Positions 45,022 to 55,122 of a stretch of DNA of 64,000 bases are shown here, piece by piece. A model generated the notes under the pieces. The model saw only the letters and a list, made by a program, of their open reading frames with translations. It ran no database searches and was not told where the DNA came from. The stretch spans positions 62,001-126,000 of the forward strand of contig NZ_FYEH01000008.1 of the NCBI RefSeq assembly GCF_900187945.1, read 5' to 3'. This DNA comes from Arboricoccus pini. Its GTDB lineage: Bacteria > Pseudomonadota > Alphaproteobacteria > Geminicoccales > Geminicoccaceae. Position 1 is the first letter of the stretch. Every line of letters begins with the position of its first letter. A program made the position numbers and the translations under genes.

Positions 45022-46116
45022 ATGCAGACACCCTTCTATCTCATCGACAAGACCGCCTTGCTGCGCAACCTCGAGCGCATCCAGGAGGTGCGCAGGCTCT
45101 CCGGCGCCAAGGCTCTCCTGGCGCTCAAATGCTTCGCGACCTGGTCGGTCTTCGATCTCATGCGCGTCTATATGGATGGCACTACGTCTTCCTCGCTCTA
45201 CGAGGTTAAGCTGGGGCGGGAAAAATTCGGCGGCGAGACGCACGCCTATAGCGTGGCCTACGGCGCCGACGAAATCGACGAGGTGGTCGCCAATGCCGAC
45301 AAGATCATTTTCAATTCGGTCGGCCAGTTCAAGCGCTTCGCGCCGCGGGCGGCCGGCTTGTCCTGCGGCCTCAGGCTCAATCCGGGCGTGAGCTCATCCA
45401 GCTTCGACCTCGCCGATCCCGCCCGGCCGTTCAGTCGCCTTGGCGAAAGCGACGTCGACATTATCATGCCCATTATGGAGCAGATCGGCGGCTTCATGAT
45501 CCACAATAATTGCGAGAACGCCGATTTCGCCCTCTTCGACCGGCTGCTCGCGGACATCGAGGTGAAATTCGGCCGCCTTTTGGAGCGCGTCAGCTGGGTG
45601 AGCCTGGGTGGCGGAATCCATTTCACCGGTGACGGCTATCCGATCGCGAATTTCGCCCAGCGTCTGAGGGGCTTTGGTGAGCGCTACGGTGTCCAGGTCT
45701 ATCTGGAGCCGGGCGAGGCCGCCATCACCCGCAGCACGACGCTCGAAGTGAGCGTTCTCGACACGCTTAAGAACGGCAAGGACCTGGCGATCGTAGACAG
45801 CTCGATCGAGGCGCACATGCTCGATCTCCTCATCTACCGGCAAAGCGCCAAGATTGCCCCCGATGCCGGAACGTACGGCTACATGGTCTGCGGCAAGTCC
45901 TGCCTGGCGGGGGACATTTTCGGCGAGTTTCATTTTCCAGCGCCGCTGAAAATCGGCGACCGACTCTCCATCCAGGACGCCGCTGGTTACACGATGGTCA
46001 AAAAGAACTGGTTCAACGGTGTCCGCATGCCGGCCATCGCCATCCGCGAACTGGACGGCACGATCCGTCAGGTCCGCGATTTTACCTATGACGACTATGT
46101 ATCGAGCCTTTCCTGA
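45022..46116 (+). CDS. nspC: Carboxy(nor)spermidine decarboxylase
   Basis: PLP-dependent decarboxylase of the alanine-racemase fold, 364 residues, making spermidine (or norspermidine) from its carboxy form. The N-terminus TPFYLIDKTALLRNLERI and KALLALKCFATWSVFDLM with the PLP lysine K36 are typical. WVSLGGGIHF and YLEPGEAAITRSTTLEVSV form the phosphate and substrate sites. GKSCLAGDIFGEF holds the conserved Cys-Asp motif. The following gene encodes the matching synthase, so the pair forms the SAM-decarboxylase-independent route to spermidine common in Alphaproteobacteria. Confidence 0.95.
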   Translation: MQTPFYLIDKTALLRNLERIQEVRRLSGAKALLALKCFATWSVFDLMRVYMDGTTSSSLYEVKLGREKFGGETHAYSVAYGADEIDEVVANADKIIFNSVGQFKRFAPRAAGLSCGLRLNPGVSSSSFDLADPARPFSRLGESDVDIIMPIMEQIGGFMIHNNCENADFALFDRLLADIEVKFGRLLERVSWVSLGGGIHFTGDGYPIANFAQRLRGFGERYGVQVYLEPGEAAITRSTTLEVSVLDTLKNGKDLAIVDSSIEAHMLDLLIYRQSAKIAPDAGTYGYMVCGKSCLAGDIFGEFHFPAPLKIGDRLSIQDAAGYTMVKKNWFNGVRMPAIAIRELDGTIRQVRDFTYDDYVSSLS

Positions 46117-46158
46117 AGGCTTTCGCTTGAATGCCAACCTCGAAGTCTGGCGCATGAC

Positions 46159-47370
46159 ATGAAAAAGAACCTGCTTATCATCGGCGCTGGCGGCGTGGCC
46201 CAGGTCGTGGCCCACAAATGCGCTCAGCACAATGACCTGATGGGCGACATCAACATCGCCTCGCGTACGCTGCGCAAATGCGAGGACATCATCGCCTCGA
46301 TCGGCCAAAAGGGCAGCATGAAGGTGCCGGGCGTGTTGAAGGGCCATGCCCTGGACGCCCAGAATGTTGGCGCGACCATCGAGCTCATTCGTGCAACGAA
46401 GAGCCAGATCGTCGTCAATGTCGGACCGGCCTTCGTCAACATGGCAGTCCTCTCGGCGTGCCTGGCCACCGGTGCTGCCTATGTCGATACGGCAATCCAC
46501 GAAGACCCGCTCAAGATCTGCGAGACGCCTCCCTGGTATGCGAACTATGAGTGGAAGCGCCGGGACGAATGCGAGAAGGCCGGCCTGACGGCTATTCTCG
46601 GTGCTGGTTTCGATCCCGGTGTCGTCAACGCCTATGCGGCCCTCGCCAAGGCCGAGTATTTCGACCGTATCGATTCGATCGACATCATCGACATCAATGC
46701 CGGTGACCATGGCCGCTACTTTGCGACCAATTTCGATCCCGAGATCAATTTCCGCGAATTCACGGGTCAGGTCTGGTCCTGGCAGAATAACCAGTGGACC
46801 TCGAACAAGATGTTCGAGGTCAAGAAGGAGTGGGACATGCCGGTCGTCGGGCCGCGCACGACCTACATGACCGGTCATGACGAGATCCACTCGCTCTCGC
46901 AGAATCTGGGTGTACCCAATATCCGCTTTTGGATGAGCTTCAGCGAGCGCTACGTCACGGTCTTCACCGTTTTAAAGAACCTGGGCCTCTTGTCCGAGCA
47001 GCCGATCAAGACAGCCGAAGGCCTGGAGGTTGTCCCACTCAAGGTCGTAAAGGCCGTTCTGCCCGATCCGTCTTCGCTGGCGCCCGATTACACAGGCAAG
47101 ACCTGCATTGGCGACCTTGTGAAGGGGGTCAAGGACGGCAAGGAGCGCGAAATCCTCTTCTACAACGTCTCCGACCACAAGGCGGCCTACGAAGAAGTCG
47201 GCAGCCAGGGAATCTCCTACACGGCGGGCGTACCGGCAGCGGCCACGGCCATGCTGATCGCCACGGGCGAATGGGACGTGCGGCGCATGGCCAATATCGA
47301 GGATCTGCCGCCCCGCCCCTTCCTCGACCTACTGGACAAGATCGGCCTGCCTACCCAGATCCGCGAGTAA
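46159..47370 (+). CDS. Carboxy(nor)spermidine synthase (saccharopine dehydrogenase-like)
   Basis: NADPH-dependent reductive condensation of aspartate semialdehyde with putrescine (or diaminopropane) to carboxyspermidine; 403 residues. It has the Rossmann start LLIIGAGGVAQVVAHKCAQH, IASRTLRKCEDI, VVNVGPAFVNMAVLSACLATGAAYVDTAI and AILGAGFDPGVVNAYAALA, all characteristic of the CANSDH/CASDH family. It follows the decarboxylase gene by 42 bp. The putrescine precursor could come from the arginine or ornithine decarboxylase encoded at 52807. Converges with the guanidine carboxylase gene with only 7 bp between them. Confidence 0.93.
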   Translation: MKKNLLIIGAGGVAQVVAHKCAQHNDLMGDINIASRTLRKCEDIIASIGQKGSMKVPGVLKGHALDAQNVGATIELIRATKSQIVVNVGPAFVNMAVLSACLATGAAYVDTAIHEDPLKICETPPWYANYEWKRRDECEKAGLTAILGAGFDPGVVNAYAALAKAEYFDRIDSIDIIDINAGDHGRYFATNFDPEINFREFTGQVWSWQNNQWTSNKMFEVKKEWDMPVVGPRTTYMTGHDEIHSLSQNLGVPNIRFWMSFSERYVTVFTVLKNLGLLSEQPIKTAEGLEVVPLKVVKAVLPDPSSLAPDYTGKTCIGDLVKGVKDGKEREILFYNVSDHKAAYEEVGSQGISYTAGVPAAATAMLIATGEWDVRRMANIEDLPPRPFLDLLDKIGLPTQIRE

Positions 47371-47377
47371 GCGGCAC

Positions 47378-50300
47378 CTAGCGCCCGCTGGGCTCGACCA
47401 GTGCCAGGATGTCGCCGCCCCGCACGACTTGGCCCGGTCGAACCCGGATTTCCTTGAGAATGCCGGTCGTAGTCGCCGGGATCGGCACTTCCATCTTCAT
47501 GGCCTCCAGGACGATGACGACATCACCGGCCCTGACAGGCTGGCCGGGCTCGGCGACGATCCGCCAAACGCTTCCCGGCATTGAGCTCATCAAGGGCTCG
47601 TGGCCCTCGGGCACGTCCCCTTCAGGACGTGGGCCGGCGGCGGTCTCGTCGACATAGGCCGCAATCCCGGCCTCCTGCCATCGGCGCCGTTCGGCCGCGA
47701 ATGCGGCCTCGCGTCCAGTTTGGAAGGCGGCGATCGAGGACGCTTCGTCTTTTAGCATCCGGGCATGCTGGCCATAGTCCAGCACCGTCTCCTCGATCTC
47801 GATCGGATAGGCGCCGTGCGGGAATGCCGCGCGCGCCTCGAGCAGTTCCTGCTCGCTTACCAGGTGGAAGCGCACCTGGTCGAAGAAGCGCAGCAGCCAG
47901 GGATGGCCGGGCTTGAAGACAGGCGTTGTCCGCCAGCTGTTCCACATCTGGATGGTACGGCCAAAGAGCTGATAGCCGCCTGGCCCCTCCATCCCGTAGA
48001 TGCACATATAGGCGCCGCCGATGCCCACCGCGTTCTCGGGTGTCCATGGGCGGGCCGGATTGTACTTGGTCGTCACCAGTCGGTGACGCGGGTCGAGAGG
48101 TGTTGCCACGGGCGCGCCCAGATAGACGTCGCCCAGGCCCATCACCAAGTAGCTCGCATTGAGGATGATGCGCTGCACGGCCGCCTCGTCCTCGAGGCCG
48201 TTAATGCGCCGGATGAACTCGATGTTCGAGGGACACCAAGGCGCATCCGGCCGCACCAGTTCCTGGTAGCGACGCATGGCCAGGACGACCTGACTGTCAT
48301 TCCAGGACAGCGGCAAATGGACAATACGCGAGGGGACGCGCATCGCATCGACGGCAGGCAGGCCGTCCTCCAACTCGACAAGCACGGCCAATAGACGCTC
48401 GCGCGCGAGCAAGGCTGGATCGTAGTGGATCTGCAACGACCTGATTCCGGGCGTCAGGTCGATGATGCCCTGGAGACGGCACCCCACCAGAGCCTCCATC
48501 AAAAGCTGGACCCTGAGCCGAAGCGCCAGATCGAGTGTCATCGCTCCGTACTCGACCAGGAGATTGGCATCCCCCTGCCGGCGATAGGCCACGGGAACGG
48601 GTGCATCCGCGGCCTTAGCCAGAATGGCGCTGCCGGCGGCCGGCACACGCAGGGGCAGCGGGCCGCCGATCGGGTCGGCGCCTGCCGTTGGCACGAAGCG
48701 AACACGATCGCCTGGACGCAGCTGGCCCAGCTTCCAGAGATCAGCTTGTGCGACGACACCCGGGCAGACGAAGCCGCCGAGACTGGGGCCATCTGGTCCG
48801 AGGATGATCGGCATATCGCCCGTAAAGTCGATGGCGCCGATCGCATAGGCATTATCGTGCAGGTTGGAGGGATGCAGACCCGCCTCCCCGCCATCCTGGC
48901 GCGCGAATTCGGGTTTGGGCCCAATCAGCCGCACACCCGTCCTGGCGCTGTTGAAATGGACTTCGTAGGTGGCGCTGAAGAGAGTGGCGACATCGTCCTC
49001 AGTGAAGAAATCCGGGGCACCGTGCGGCCCATAAACAGTCTGGAGCTGCCACTCATGGGAAAGCGCCGGCAAGTCGACGGGAGCCGGCGCGCCTGATTGG
49101 CGGGCCTCGTCGCCATAGGCCAGCATGTCGCCGGCGCGAAGCGCGCCCGTCGCATGGCCGCCAAAGCCGCCAAGCGTAAAGGTCGCGGCCGAGCCCAGCA
49201 GGGATGCTGCCTCGAAAGCTCCCCGCACCGCCAGATAGCCACGCAAGCCGGGACCGTCGATGGCGCCCACCGCCAGGATCTGACCGGCTCGCACCGCTAC
49301 GGGTCGGCCCATGGGTACCGGCTCGTCGTCGAGGCGAGCCGCCATGGCGGCACCGGCCAGACCGATCAGGGCGTCGGCATGGAAACGGAGCGTCGGGCCG
49401 GAGGCCGTCACCTCCAGGGCCAGGCTTTCCTCCGCATTGCCGACGATGCGATTAGCCAGCCGATGCGCCTTTGAATCCATCGGCCCCGATGGGGGGACGC
49501 CCACATGCCAAAAGCCCAGACGACCCGGCAATTCCTGCAGGCTCGACATTGCCCCGGGTGTCAGGACTTCGACGCGCCTTGAGCAGAAGGCAAAGCCTTG
49601 CAGCGTCGAGGTCGTCATGCTGGCGGTCGCGAAGACGGAACTGGCGGCGATGGCGCGAAGATAATCCAGGTTGGTCTCGATGCCCTGGATGCGCGTCTGC
49701 GCCAGGGCGGCGCGGAGCCCCTCCAGGGCGCATTGCCGGTCCGGGCCGGCAACGATGATCTTGGCCAGCAGAGGATCGTAGAACGTCGACACTTCCGTGC
49801 CTGTCTCGATCCATCCATCGACGCGAGCACCATCGGGGAAGACGAGCTCGGTCAGTCGCCCGGCAGAGGGTTGGAAATCCTTGAGCGGCGATTCGGCATA
49901 AAGCCTGGCCTCGATCGCCGCCCCTTGCGGGCGACGTGTCGCCAGGTCGTCCAGGACATTCTCGCCGGCCGCCTGCCTGACCATGCAGGCGACGAGATCG
50001 ACGCCGAAGACGGCCTCGGTCACCGGATGCTCGACCTGAAGGCGGGTGTTCACCTCGAGAAAGAAGAAATCGCCACGCTCGGCATCGAAGATGAACTCGA
50101 CCGTGCCCGCCGATTCGTAGGCGACACCTCGCGCGAGCTTGACGGCGGCCGCGTGCAGCCCCTCGCGCGTGGCTTCGGATAAGCCGGGTGCAGGTGTCTC
50201 CTCGACGACCTTCTGGTTGCGTCGCTGCAGCGAGCAGTCCCGTTCGCCCAATGCCAGGACGCCGCCTTTGCCGTCGCCGAAGATCTGCACCTCGACATGC

Positions 50301-50920
50301 CGGGCGGCGGCGACGAAGCGCTCCAGGTACACGCGCGCGTCACCGAAGCTGGCGCCGGCCGTTCGTTGCACGGCCGCGAACGACTCGGCCAGGGCGGAGG
50401 CATCGCGGCAAAGGCGCATGCCGATGCCGCCGCCGCCAGCGGTACTCTTGAGCATCAAGGGGTAGCCGATGGTCTCTGCGGCCCCGAGTGCTGCATCGAG
50501 ATCGTCGAGCAGTGCCGAGCCCGGCAGGAGCGGCACGCCACTCTCGCTAGCCAGTCGCCTCGCCTCGTGCTTCAGGCCGAAGGAACGCAGATGCTCGGGC
50601 CGGGGCCCTATGAAGGCGATCCCCTCATCAGCCAGGCGCAAGGCGAATTCGGCGCTCTCGCTGAGAAAGCCGTAGCCCGGATGAACCGCCTCGGCACCCG
50701 TTTGCCTGCAGGCGGCAATCACCGCCTCGATATTGAGGTAGGTATCGAGCGCGCTGTTGCCCGGCAGGATCACCCGCTCATCGGCCAAGCGCACGGGCAG
50801 CGTGAAGCGATCTGCCTCCGAGGCGATGGCGACACTGCGCACGCCCAACTGGCGCAGCGTCCTTTGGATCCGGGCCGCGATCTCGCCCCGGTTGGCGATC
50901 AGCACCTTCCTGAACATCAA
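47378..50920 (-). CDS. Guanidine/urea carboxylase (biotin-dependent)
   Basis: Large biotin carboxylase of 1180 residues: biotin-carboxylase domains (about 1-450, starting FRKVLIANRGEIAARI, with GGGGIGMRLC-type ATP loop), then carboxyltransferase parts homologous to KipA/PxpC (about 480-780) and KipI/PxpB (about 800-1090). A C-terminal biotinyl domain has EAMKMEVPI with biotin lysine K1142. Annotated families call this urea carboxylase. The two DUF1989 partners and the guanidine-I riboswitch leader indicate that it carboxylates guanidine. No allophanate hydrolase is found in the window. The start overlaps the DUF1989 gene upstream by four bases. Confidence 0.9.
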   Translation of the reverse strand: MMFRKVLIANRGEIAARIQRTLRQLGVRSVAIASEADRFTLPVRLADERVILPGNSALDTYLNIEAVIAACRQTGAEAVHPGYGFLSESAEFALRLADEGIAFIGPRPEHLRSFGLKHEARRLASESGVPLLPGSALLDDLDAALGAAETIGYPLMLKSTAGGGGIGMRLCRDASALAESFAAVQRTAGASFGDARVYLERFVAAARHVEVQIFGDGKGGVLALGERDCSLQRRNQKVVEETPAPGLSEATREGLHAAAVKLARGVAYESAGTVEFIFDAERGDFFFLEVNTRLQVEHPVTEAVFGVDLVACMVRQAAGENVLDDLATRRPQGAAIEARLYAESPLKDFQPSAGRLTELVFPDGARVDGWIETGTEVSTFYDPLLAKIIVAGPDRQCALEGLRAALAQTRIQGIETNLDYLRAIAASSVFATASMTTSTLQGFAFCSRRVEVLTPGAMSSLQELPGRLGFWHVGVPPSGPMDSKAHRLANRIVGNAEESLALEVTASGPTLRFHADALIGLAGAAMAARLDDEPVPMGRPVAVRAGQILAVGAIDGPGLRGYLAVRGAFEAASLLGSAATFTLGGFGGHATGALRAGDMLAYGDEARQSGAPAPVDLPALSHEWQLQTVYGPHGAPDFFTEDDVATLFSATYEVHFNSARTGVRLIGPKPEFARQDGGEAGLHPSNLHDNAYAIGAIDFTGDMPIILGPDGPSLGGFVCPGVVAQADLWKLGQLRPGDRVRFVPTAGADPIGGPLPLRVPAAGSAILAKAADAPVPVAYRRQGDANLLVEYGAMTLDLALRLRVQLLMEALVGCRLQGIIDLTPGIRSLQIHYDPALLARERLLAVLVELEDGLPAVDAMRVPSRIVHLPLSWNDSQVVLAMRRYQELVRPDAPWCPSNIEFIRRINGLEDEAAVQRIILNASYLVMGLGDVYLGAPVATPLDPRHRLVTTKYNPARPWTPENAVGIGGAYMCIYGMEGPGGYQLFGRTIQMWNSWRTTPVFKPGHPWLLRFFDQVRFHLVSEQELLEARAAFPHGAYPIEIEETVLDYGQHARMLKDEASSIAAFQTGREAAFAAERRRWQEAGIAAYVDETAAGPRPEGDVPEGHEPLMSSMPGSVWRIVAEPGQPVRAGDVVIVLEAMKMEVPIPATTTGILKEIRVRPGQVVRGGDILALVEPSGR

Positions 50921-51546
50921 GCGGGTCCGTCGAAGATCAAGACCTCGATCGGCGTCGGGTCGAAGCCATTGCAGGGATTATTGATCTGCGGGCAATTGGA
51001 GATGACGCAAAGGACGTCCATGCGCGCGATCATGTCGACATAGCCGCCCGGGGCCGAGATGCCGTCGTCGATCACGAGGTCGCCATTCTGCGAGATAGGC
51101 ACGTTCATGAAGAAATTGATGTTGGGAACGATGTCGCGCTTGCTCATGCCGTAGCGCGACACTTCGAGCAGGAAATTCTCGCGGCAGGCATGCTCAAAGC
51201 GCGTGTGGTGGCCAAAGCGGACCGTATTGCTCTCGCAGGAGCAGGCGCCGGCCGAGGTGTCGTGTCGACCGCATGTGTCGGCGACGATCTCCAGCATGAC
51301 GCGCCCCTCGTTTGAGACGATCTTGCTGCCGAGGCCCAGATAGGCGGCCTTCTGCTGTCGGATCGTGTCTTGCGCGCTGTAGCGCTCGGCATGGTCGCCC
51401 GCGTTGTAGAACAGCGTGTCGACCGCCTGCTGGCCCTTGGAATCGACAAGGCGGAGCCTCTGGCCCGCCCGCACGATCCCCGACCAGGGTTTGCGGGCGG
51501 GAACGGTCACGTGCAGGACTGGTGATGGATTGGCGGCCATGATCAT
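50917..51546 (-). CDS. DUF1989 protein, carboxyguanidine deiminase subunit (UAAP1-like)
   Basis: Protein of 209 residues of the urea-carboxylase-associated family 1 (DUF1989). Typical stretches: WSGIVRAGQRLRLVDSKGQQAVDTLFYNA, then ADTCGRHDTSAGACSCESNTVRFGH, HACRENFLLEVSRYGM and CNCPQINNPCNGFDPTPIEVLIF-like end (ISNCPQINNPCNGF). Cysteines and histidines here are candidates for a metal site. Known work assigns DUF1989 pairs beside guanidine carboxylase as carboxyguanidine deiminase CgdAB, releasing ammonia to give allophanate. It overlaps both neighbours by four bases, so the three genes are translationally coupled. Confidence 0.9.
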   Translation of the reverse strand: MIMAANPSPVLHVTVPARKPWSGIVRAGQRLRLVDSKGQQAVDTLFYNAGDHAERYSAQDTIRQQKAAYLGLGSKIVSNEGRVMLEIVADTCGRHDTSAGACSCESNTVRFGHHTRFEHACRENFLLEVSRYGMSKRDIVPNINFFMNVPISQNGDLVIDDGISAPGGYVDMIARMDVLCVISNCPQINNPCNGFDPTPIEVLIFDGPA

Positions 51547-52376
51547 GCTCCCTGCAGGGCCAGATAGTCATCGAGATTATCGAAGCCGCGCCTGGCCTCC
51601 TGCGTGGCTGTCCGGCAGAGGTCGTCCGCGCTGACGGGCGGCGCCTTGAAGCGGATCAGACCAAGATCGCCCGGCGCGTAGGACGGGGCCGGGTCCATCG
51701 GATGTGGGCAGGCGGATACGGCAACGATCAGGTCCATCTCAGCGCGAAGATCGACAAAGTCGCCCGGGCGCCGCCCGGCCTCGTTCCAGCCGATCTCGCC
51801 ATGCGCGCCGACGACCGTCGGCGCGAAGAAAGTGACGACGGGCGCGATGTCGGCTCTGCCAAGGCCATGCTTGCCGGCCGCCAGGACGAGATTGTCACGT
51901 GTGTTGCGATGGCTGGGATCATCGCCGTAGCGCTCCTTGATGGAAGCGGCCGTCGAGCCGCCGACCAGGACGTCGTGGTGCCCGCTCGTGTCCTCGATGA
52001 TCGAGAGAATGACCCGTCCCATGTCGGAGAAGAGTACGCGTCCCTTGCGCAGCTCCGTGGTCCACTGGACCTTGATCGTATCGGCGTGGTTCAGCCTTTC
52101 CGAGGGGTCCTTGGCATTCCAGGCCAGGAGACTGGCAGCGCCCTTGCCGTCCTTGTTGACGAGCCTGAGCCCCTGGCCACGTGCCAAGAGCAATGTCGTA
52201 TACCAGCCGCCCGGGAGCGTCGATGCCGTGATGACGTCACTCTCAGCGATGCTGGCGGCGTTCAGTGCCGTTGGGGCGGGCCAGACCGTCGGCGCTATGG
52301 TCGTGCCCGTATGCTTGAGTTCCTCATAACGGCGACGATAGCCCTCGATCCGGGCTGCGCGCTCGGCCTCGCTCAT
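51543..52376 (-). CDS. DUF1989 protein, carboxyguanidine deiminase subunit (UAAP2-like)
   Basis: First gene of the guanidine operon, 277 residues of the urea-carboxylase-associated family 2 (DUF1989). Typical stretches: TLPGGWYTTLLLARGQGLRLVNKDGKGAASLLAWNAKDPSERLNHADTIKVQW, then LFSDMGRVILSIIEDTSGHHDVLVGGST and RNTRDNLVLAAGKHGLGRADI. The open frame runs to 52682, but ATG 52376 has a strong AGGAGG site and the correct N-terminus; the rest is the riboswitch leader. It is expected to form a heteromer with the protein at 50917. Confidence 0.9.
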   Translation of the reverse strand: MSEAERAARIEGYRRRYEELKHTGTTIAPTVWPAPTALNAASIAESDVITASTLPGGWYTTLLLARGQGLRLVNKDGKGAASLLAWNAKDPSERLNHADTIKVQWTTELRKGRVLFSDMGRVILSIIEDTSGHHDVLVGGSTAASIKERYGDDPSHRNTRDNLVLAAGKHGLGRADIAPVVTFFAPTVVGAHGEIGWNEAGRRPGDFVDLRAEMDLIVAVSACPHPMDPAPSYAPGDLGLIRFKAPPVSADDLCRTATQEARRGFDNLDDYLALQGA

Positions 52377-52517
52377 GGCGCCATTCCTCCTGTCGGGAAG
52401 CGCGCAAGAACAAGGCCGCGCCCGGTTCGACACGCGCTCGTTTCGGGTCTGGGGTAGCGGGCGGAATGTGCTGCCATCGGTGATCATCGCTCCATGGGCG
52501 CGCAAAGGCTGCGCGGT

Positions 52518-52525
52518 CCGACAGG
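52518..52525 (-). promoter_or_regulatory. Predicted anti-Shine-Dalgarno segment of the riboswitch
   Basis: CCTGTCGG in the RNA is exactly complementary to CCGACAGG at 52396-52389, whose last bases are the first half of the AGGAGG ribosome site of the DUF1989 gene at 52376. Its first four bases (CCTG) are also the end of the 3' strand of the predicted aptamer P1 helix. The two pairings therefore exclude each other. Confidence 0.55.
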
Positions 52526-52664
52526 TCGAGATCTCCCGGGCTTTTATCCCGCCGTGTACCGCGCTGATGGTCCTACAAGCCTGCAGGCAGCGCGGCGGGT
52601 GGCTCTTGGACCGTGCACTCACTGCAAGCGTGAGCAGGAACCCTAGCCATCCATGTCTCACCTG
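52522..52664 (-). ncRNA. Guanidine-I (ykkC) riboswitch
   Basis: RNA element in the 5' leader of the carboxylase operon. In transcript order it has GGCTAGGGTTCC (52648-52637), a hairpin (TGCTCACGCTTGCAGTGAGTGCA), GGTCCAAGAG, a second hairpin region, and ACACGGCGGGATAAAAGC followed by CCGGGAGA (to 52532). These match the ykkC consensus closely. Predicted P1 is CAGGTGAGA (52664-52656) with TCTCGACCTG (52531-52522), one bulged G. The adjacent genes are guanidine carboxylase and carboxyguanidine deiminase, which supports guanidine-I over the ppGpp or PRPP ykkC subtypes. About 145 bases separate it from the start codon. Confidence 0.9.
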
Positions 52665-52806
52665 GAGGGAAGCACGGAGCATAGCGCCATGGCAAGGGGG
52701 AGCGCCTCCCGCATTTGCAGGCTGGGTCCGCCTGACCTACTGCTGTGGCACGAGATCGCGCCGGGCGCAGGTCTTTATTTATTCTCAAGCGGGAGTTGTT
52801 CACCGG
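52665..52806. promoter_or_regulatory. Divergent promoter region, guanidine operon and decarboxylase gene
   Basis: About 140 bp between the riboswitch and the rightward decarboxylase start. It should carry both promoters. An AT-rich spot (GTCTTTATTTATTCTCAAG, 52771-52789) lies just before the decarboxylase gene, and a small inverted repeat GGGAG-CGC-CTCCC lies near 52698-52710. No ykkC element faces the decarboxylase. Confidence 0.4.
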
Positions 52807-55122
52807 ATGCTTGGCAAGATCACGGCCGAACAGGAATTCCGCGTCTTGATCATCGACGAGAAACTGGCGCAGCCCGCCAGCTATGGCGGCAGGGCCATTC
52901 GTGCTCTGGCCGAGGAGTTACGACGCCAGGGCATCGGCGTCATCGAGGCCCTGAGCTACGAGGATGGCCAGGCGGCCTTCATGGCGGATGCGTCCTTGGA
53001 CGCAATTCTGATCGACTGGACGAGCGGCGATGTCGACAATGAGGCTGTCGAGCACGCGGCCGACGCTCTCTTGCGCACCATTCGCCGGCGCAACGCCTAT
53101 ATCCCGATCATCCTCTTGGCCGACCGAGAGGCGACGGAAACCCTTGACGTCGACATCATGTTGAAGGCGGATGAATATGTCTTCACGCTCGAGGATACGA
53201 CCTCGTTCATTGCCGGTCGCGTCCTGGCGGCGATCAAACGCTACACCGCCAACCTCCTGCCGCCCTTCAACAAGGCTCTCTTTGCCTACCTAGAGACAGC
53301 GGAATATTCATGGGCGGCCCCGGGCCACCAGGGCGGCATCGCCTTCACCAAAAGCCCGGCCGGCCGCGTCTTCTACGATTTCTTCGGCGAAAATCTCTTT
53401 CGCACCGACAGTGGCATCGAACGCGGTTCGCTGGGCTCCCTCCTCGATCATTCGGGCCCGATCGGCGAGGGCGAGGAATATGCGGCCCGCATTTTCGGCG
53501 CCCATCGCTCCTATTCCGGGTTGACGGGGACCTCGGGCTCGAATCGCGCCATCATGGGCTCGGTCATTGGCGAGAACCGGTTCGCGATCTGCGACCGCAA
53601 CTGCCATAAATCGATCGAACAGGGCCTCATCCTGGCGGGCGGCGTTCCCCTCTTCCTGGTTCCGACCCGCAACCATTACGGCATCATCGGCCCGATTCTA
53701 CCCGACCAGCTCGACCCTGGCCGGATCCGCGAACGGCTGGAAGCGCATCCCCTACGCGGGCACGCTAAATCGCTGCGGCCCACCTACGCCGTGCTGACCA
53801 ACTCCACCTATGACGGCATCTGCTACGATGCCAGTCGGGCACAGGATCTGCTCGACAAGAGCACGGACACGATCCATTTCGACGAGGCTTGGTTCGCCTA
53901 TGCGCGCTTCCATCCGCTCTATGTGAACCGCTTCGCCATGCGCGGATCGCCCGAGGACCATCCGGCCAACGGCCCGACCGTCTTTGCCACGCACTCGACC
54001 CACAAACTGCTGGCGGCTCTCTCGCAAGCCTCCTACATCCACGTTCGCGAGGGCCGCCGCCGGGTCGAGCACAGCGTCTTCAATGAAAGCTACATGGCGC
54101 AGCAGACGACCTCGCCGCTCTACGCGTTGCTGGCCTCTAACGAGATCGGCGCGGCGATGATGGACGGCCCGGGCGGCCGGTCGCTGACCGACGACGTCAT
54201 CCGCGAGTCGATCGCCTTCCGTCAGGCCCTGGCCCGGGCACATCGGGAGTACGCGCAGCGCGGCGACTGGTTCTTCTGGCCCTGGAACGCACCAGCAATT
54301 CTGGACCGGGAAACCGGCGGCAGCGTGCCCTTCGCCGATGCCGACCCCGTAATATTGGCACGCGATCCGGCGGCCTGGATCCTCGGCAAGGACGAGGCCT
54401 GGCACGGCTTTGGCGATATTCCCGATGGCTGGGCCATGCTCGATCCGATCAAGGTCGGCATCGTCTGCCCGGGCATCGACGATGCCGGTGAGATGCTGGA
54501 GCGGGGCATCCCCGCCGCCGTGCTCAACGCCTATCTGCACCATAACGGCATCATCCCGTCGCGCACGACGGATTTCATGATCCTCTGCCTGTTCTCGATG
54601 GGGGTCACGAAGGGCAAATGGGGCACGCTCATCAGCGTACTCTTGGACTTCAAGCAGGATTACGACGAGAATCGCCGGCTCGTCGAATGCCTGCCCAACC
54701 TGGTGGCCGTCGACCGGCGAAAATATGGTCGCCTTGGCCTGAAGGACCTGGCCGACATGATGTTCGAACAGATGAAGGTCAGCCGCATGGAGCAATGGCA
54801 GGCGAAAGCCTTCGGCACGCTGCCAATCCCTGTCATGCCGCCCAGGTTGGCGGCAGGGCTCCTGAACGAGGGCGAAGCCGAGCTCCTGCCGCTGGACCAG
54901 CTTACCGACCGTGTGGCGGGAGTGGGCATCATTCCCTATCCGCCGGGCATTCCAATCATCATGCCGGGCGAAAGCTTCGGTCCCGCCGATGGGCCATGGC
55001 TCTCCTACATGCGCGCCCTACAGGATTGGCGCATAGCCTTCCCGGGCTTCGGCAAGGAGGTCGAGGGCTCGGTCGTCAAGGACGACGTCTACCATGTCTG
55101 GTGCCTCAAGCAGCGGCCCTGA
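52807..55122 (+). CDS. Orn/Lys/Arg decarboxylase (class III PLP, with N-terminal wing)
   Basis: PLP-dependent amino-acid decarboxylase of 771 residues. The flavodoxin-like wing domain starts RVLIIDEKLAQPASYGGRAIRALAEEL. The core has WAAPGHQGGIAF, FGAHRSYSGLTGTSGSNRAIMGSV, HFDEAWFAYARFHPLY, and the cofactor lysine K400 in FATHSTHKLLAALSQAS. A C-terminal domain ends near VYHVWCLKQRP. Product is agmatine, cadaverine or putrescine; substrate choice is not readable by eye. The open frame extends to 52375, but ATG 52807 with GGGAG upstream gives the correct domain start. Divergent from the guanidine operon. Confidence 0.92.
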   Translation: MLGKITAEQEFRVLIIDEKLAQPASYGGRAIRALAEELRRQGIGVIEALSYEDGQAAFMADASLDAILIDWTSGDVDNEAVEHAADALLRTIRRRNAYIPIILLADREATETLDVDIMLKADEYVFTLEDTTSFIAGRVLAAIKRYTANLLPPFNKALFAYLETAEYSWAAPGHQGGIAFTKSPAGRVFYDFFGENLFRTDSGIERGSLGSLLDHSGPIGEGEEYAARIFGAHRSYSGLTGTSGSNRAIMGSVIGENRFAICDRNCHKSIEQGLILAGGVPLFLVPTRNHYGIIGPILPDQLDPGRIRERLEAHPLRGHAKSLRPTYAVLTNSTYDGICYDASRAQDLLDKSTDTIHFDEAWFAYARFHPLYVNRFAMRGSPEDHPANGPTVFATHSTHKLLAALSQASYIHVREGRRRVEHSVFNESYMAQQTTSPLYALLASNEIGAAMMDGPGGRSLTDDVIRESIAFRQALARAHREYAQRGDWFFWPWNAPAILDRETGGSVPFADADPVILARDPAAWILGKDEAWHGFGDIPDGWAMLDPIKVGIVCPGIDDAGEMLERGIPAAVLNAYLHHNGIIPSRTTDFMILCLFSMGVTKGKWGTLISVLLDFKQDYDENRRLVECLPNLVAVDRRKYGRLGLKDLADMMFEQMKVSRMEQWQAKAFGTLPIPVMPPRLAAGLLNEGEAELLPLDQLTDRVAGVGIIPYPPGIPIIMPGESFGPADGPWLSYMRALQDWRIAFPGFGKEVEGSVVKDDVYHVWCLKQRP

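Follow-up and report, generated by a model that had tools for sequence, protein, structure and literature searches.

A complete guanidine-I riboswitch lies upstream of UAAP1 in Arboricoccus pini and probably turns on the UAAP1-UAAP2-guanidine carboxylase operon when guanidinium binds. The riboswitch is genuine but ordinary, one more member of a well-studied class. It was found in a window of 64,000 nt (the whole stretch of DNA analysed, from contig NZ_FYEH01000008.1), and all positions below are counted from the first letter of this window. The aptamer, its operon, and the flanking genes are as follows.

52531–52657, minus strand: Guanidine-I (ykkC subtype 1) riboswitch aptamer (Rfam RF00442, 78.3 bits, full-length model)
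51543–52376, minus strand: UAAP1 (urea amidolyase associated protein 1), operon gene 1 (TIGR03425)
50917–51546, minus strand: UAAP2, operon gene 2 (TIGR03424)
47378–50920, minus strand: urea-carboxylase family enzyme, predicted guanidine carboxylase (TIGR02712; Asp 698)
45022–47370, plus strand: carboxynorspermidine decarboxylase and synthase, one flank of the operon
52375–55122 (frame), plus strand: arginine/lysine-type decarboxylase, divergent, other flank of the operon

A covariance-model search bore out the aptamer class proposed in the first-pass annotation of this DNA. RF00442 (Guanidine-I) matched the minus strand at 52657–52531 with 78.3 bits (gathering score 63; E value of 3e-12), and the match spans model positions 1–107 of 107, i.e., a complete aptamer. 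RF00442 was the sole Rfam family at E up to 1 between 52300 and 52760; the PRPP/ppGpp (subtype 2) family gave no match in this interval at that limit. An Rfam search of the genome showed a single copy of the Guanidine-I aptamer. The short strings named in the annotation were all where it had placed them, and GGGAGA at 52537–52532 is followed by TCTCGACCTG at 52531–52522, both on the minus strand. A degenerate guanidine-II element, as in Rhodopseudomonas and Bradyrhizobium, was sought in the leader and was not found. Guanidine-I riboswitches are usually ON switches (PMC12186494). By analogy with this experimentally established class, the ligand would be guanidinium and its binding would increase expression.

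Directly downstream of the aptamer and on the same (minus) strand are UAAP1, UAAP2, and the guanidine-type carboxylase, which agrees with the earlier reading of a guanidine-degradation operon under aptamer control. UAAP1 matched NCBIfam TIGR03425 with 279.5 bits (cut-off 206) and is the probable carboxyguanidine deaminase subunit. UAAP2 matched TIGR03424 with 333.6 bits (cut-off 285), and the urea-carboxylase family enzyme scored 1741 bits with TIGR02712, above the curated NCBIfam cut-off. The diagnostic Asp/Asn site of the carboxylase is presumably position 1330 of the Kluyveromyces urea amidolyase. In an alignment to the solved structure of that enzyme (5i8i), carboxylase residue 698 is an Asp opposite Asn1330. 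Asp marks guanidine carboxylases (PMC12186494), and we predict from the sequence that the product of 47378–50920 is one. There is also a strong match to allophanate hydrolase elsewhere in the genome; therefore, a complete guanidine-degradation pathway is plausible. The operon sits among polyamine genes (45022–55122).

The UAAP1 start at 52376 is supported by relatives that align from residues 1–5. A start farther upstream, at 52485, was discarded because its SD is poorly spaced and homologues start at 52376. An in-frame extension of UAAP1 (51543–52682, minus strand, a 379-aa ATG frame) passes through the aptamer, and a naive gene caller could bury the riboswitch in a false UAAP1 N-terminus.

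The elements considered for communication between the aptamer and the ribosome site are as follows.

52518–52525, minus strand: CCTGTCGG, proposed anti-SD strand, exact complement of 52396–52389
52389–52396, minus strand: CCGACAGG, proposed partner of the anti-SD strand, overlapping 3 nt of the SD
52386–52391, minus strand: AGGAGG, ribosome site (SD) of the first gene, 9 nt before the ATG at 52376
52656–52664, minus strand: 5' strand of the proposed helix P1 (P0-like), complementary to 52531–52522 with one bulge, its transcription putative
52350–52424, minus strand: stable local hairpin enclosing the SD and AUG and pairing with early coding sequence, predicted at −41.8 kcal/mol
52671–52689, minus strand: sigma-54-like half-sites TGGCGC...GTGCT, GG-N13-GC, with a spacing 3 nt too long

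The first-pass annotation had proposed that a closing helix, 52664–52656 with 52531–52522, holds CCTG when guanidine is bound, and that CCTGTCGG otherwise masks the ribosome site by pairing with CCGACAGG. We consider this exchange improbable, and the switch probably lies in strands other than the P1/CCTGTCGG pair. The closing helix can be drawn with 9 bp and a bulge, but its complementarity is not significant (p of 0.09–0.12), and the published guanidine-I fold lacks an enclosing P1-type helix, the enclosing P0 belonging instead to the PRPP relative (PMC6031431). CCTGTCGG and CCGACAGG are indeed exactly complementary over 8 bp, but an excess far above chance was not confirmed. In favor of the pairing, an 8-nt complement to the 20-nt SD region had p = 0.013 against dinucleotide shuffles for the whole leader, and p = 0.002 within its first 21 nt. 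Among 185 real SD-bearing control genes, 5.4% show at least 8 consecutive complementary nt at the SD, and 0.5% have such a run at the far 5' end (first 25 nt) of the leader. The pairing covers 3 nt (AGG) alone of the 6-nt SD, the SD duplex energy of the window leader gave p = 0.07–0.08, and by this measure no SD-sequestering strand of this leader was significant. The 8-nt complementarity is slightly unusual and was chosen post hoc.

Nearest-neighbour folding, which modelled neither ligand nor kinetics, also came out against the exchange; it weakens the proposal but does not disprove it. In full-length ensembles (aptamer, leader, and early coding sequence), the CCTGTCGG:CCGACAGG helix had a probability of 0.000 whether the RNA was free or aptamer-constrained, and forcing it cost about 19 kcal/mol and 11 kcal/mol, respectively. 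The SD/AUG hairpin at 52350–52424 outcompetes it as soon as coding sequence is part of the RNA. In the leader by itself, with aptamer and coding sequence both left off, the helix is the MFE structure (probability 0.93), and so the two strands are, as modelled, able to pair on their own. However, when the RNA ended before the coding sequence, the helix reached 0.02–0.99 with the aptamer forced (3' ends 52385–52377) and stayed at 0.000 with the aptamer free at all 3' ends tried. In these models, the helix is therefore missing from the ligand-free state to which it had been assigned, and truncated RNA pairs these strands only with a folded aptamer, which reverses the proposed direction. Some room for the exchange comes from the P0-like helix, which with the aptamer fixed had an ensemble probability of 0.005–0.72 depending on the chosen ends, reaching 0.2–0.7 for some 3' ends.

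We compared 42 guanidine-I leaders, that of the window included, collected by family, class, and protein searches. A sigma-54 promoter, called at a score of 10 or more of 12 within 60 nt upstream of the aptamer, is present in 28 of the 42 leaders, among which related genomes recur so that the events are not independent, versus 3 of 1963 control segments. The motif, TGGCAC-N5-TTGC, lies directly 5' of the aptamers (leaders L002-L014, L017, L018, L020, L022-L025, L027, L029-L032, L048, and L073). Its -12 element is mostly 9–15 nt before the aptamer, and therefore the transcript would start at the aptamer edge. A phylum search added five alphaproteobacterial leaders with the promoter in the same place (L118, L121, L125, L126, and L129); most leaders from outside Alphaproteobacteria were without it. 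None of 34 guanidine-II elements had a sigma-54 promoter upstream. The finding suggests that these operons are under combined control by nitrogen status and guanidine; if confirmed, such control fits guanidine as a nitrogen source. A literature search, with most subscription literature outside its scope, found no paper with both 'guanidine riboswitch' and 'sigma54.' An enclosing helix looked significant in 6 of the 42 leaders and was discarded, as in most of these six its 5' strand falls within promoter sequence.

The same leaders show complementarity around the SD. Complementarity between the SD region (strand D) and a leader strand upstream of it (C) has a Fisher p of 4e-11 against shuffles across the 42 leaders, or 2e-8 in a second estimate, and strand C is in turn complementary to a strand (B) just after the aptamer (p of 5e-15 across the 42). 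In a covariation set of 13 Rhizobiales-type leaders, with the three strands cut out by eye, B-C was 91.5% paired and C-D 84.6% paired, percentages that lean upward as the blocks were picked for pairing. The double changes are the stronger part: four pairs changed on both sides in B-C (covariation score reached by 3 of 500 shuffles), and six pairs and 18 cells in C-D (0 of 500). We infer that B-C pairing corresponds to ON and C-D pairing to OFF. The three-strand set, in which B and the SD compete for the anti-SD strand C, is probably the translational platform of Rhizobiales-type guanidine-I riboswitches (seen in L006, L007, L009, L015, L018, L021, L023, L038, L048, L065, L073, and L118). As leads, these two by-products, on sigma-54 promoters and on the platform of three strands, outrank the window riboswitch itself.

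These relatives also bear on the exchange between P1 and the anti-SD helix. In most alphaproteobacterial relatives, transcription would begin at the aptamer edge, and therefore no 5' strand is available there for a P1-type helix. Their anti-SD strand is placed elsewhere as well, in most of the 42 leaders at +30 to +49 after the aptamer (about +37). Searches of species genomes and plasmids turned up no close relative of the window leader, and so the comparison points against the exchange without being decisive. There is a slim prospect that loss of a sigma-54 start and gain of 5' sequence gave this leader a P0 helix of the PRPP type, with an anti-SD strand coupled to it; if true, the acquisition would be a convergent use of P0 as a platform within ykkC RNAs.

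Several other arrangements were seen in the wider searches. Family and order searches yielded five aptamers in 31 genomes, the other four outside the window's genus; where the downstream gene was read, these precede an ABC-transporter-type gene, not UAAP1. In L038 (2099–2473), L048 (2106–2470), and L073 (2124–2461), a guanidine-I aptamer is followed by a short open frame that has a ribosome site, and then by a guanidine-II element directly 5' of the UAAP gene, placing two guanidine riboswitch classes in series. L071 has both classes about 2 kb apart. In L015, L021, and L026, it is a short open frame, and not the large gene downstream, that follows the ribosome site closest to the aptamer (region 80–220 nt after the aptamer). 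This frame is arginine-rich by eye in L015 and L021 and is possibly a leader peptide in all three.

The biological sense of the earlier proposal, a guanidine ON switch, was right, but its P1/anti-SD platform is unsupported, and output at translation is plausible in view of its relatives. Our preferred reading is that of an ordinary guanidine-I switch in which the 154-nt leader (63–136 nt in relatives) is predicted to dismantle P3 by pairing with it when the RNA is ligand-free; guanidine would stabilise P3 and alter leader folding around the SD/AUG hairpin. In the ligand-free model, the free MFE structure does dismantle P3 and is 17 kcal/mol below the aptamer-constrained fold. The match GCCCGG:CCGGGC, a candidate P3 competitor in the window, had p of 0.18, and a general P3-competitor strand downstream was not significant across the 42 leaders (Fisher p of 0.07). 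Less firmly than ligand and direction, we would place the output at translation initiation, because relatives keep SD-complementary strands and because there is no good intrinsic terminator. Weighing against our reading, the leader is longer than those of relatives, its own SD duplex energy is not significant, and modelled SD accessibility was 0.53 in the free and aptamer-constrained ensembles alike.

Action at transcription instead, where the long leader would terminate through Rho or at a weak intrinsic site and guanidine would permit read-through, is rather unlikely. Studied guanidine-I cases usually do act on transcription (PMC12186494), and the leader has C-rich, G-poor stretches (24 C and 14 G within 60 nt, some 30–90 nt after the aptamer). 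However, this excess is modest and was counted in this leader alone, a terminator scan returned a single weak terminator-like site (5 T of 8) and none that was strong, and short-leader relatives show anti-SD designs. It is improbable that the aptamer was kept while regulation decayed or was rewired, the sigma-54 promoter lost and the leader no longer switching. Such a history would account for the window half-sites, which occupy the place of the relatives' intact promoter (no properly spaced GG-N10-GC match was found in the 110 nt upstream of the aptamer), and for the lack of a recognisable platform of the relatives' kind, as the window leader does not show the B/C/D arrangement. Against decay, the aptamer is complete with its conserved core intact at 78 bits, the operon reading frames are open, and the genome has rpoN; another promoter may simply serve.

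The window riboswitch can be set beside three known systems. With PRPP/ppGpp riboswitches (ykkC subtype 2), it shares the overall fold. The PRPP aptamer couples an enclosing P0 helix to its platform, and the P1 proposed here would correspond to that P0; unlike those RNAs, the window element matches the guanidine-I family and has guanidine genes, and its P0-like pairing is not significant. With Rhizobiales-type leaders (L006, L009, L018, L021, L023, L048, L118, and others), it shares the aptamer and guanidine uptake or degradation genes, and a translational ON switch is likely in both. However, in most of those leaders the aptamer edge carries a sigma-54 promoter, and the anti-anti-SD, anti-SD, and SD strands covary; the window has neither feature. 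It differs from the Guanidine-I model (RF00442) in a long P2 loop, the aptamer having 127 nt versus 107 model positions, and in the leader of 154 nt that follows without a recognisable strong terminator. Nevertheless, it resembles that class in its complete aptamer, including the conserved ACACGG...GGGAUAAAAGCCCGGGAGA core, and in its placement upstream of guanidine carboxylase pathway genes.
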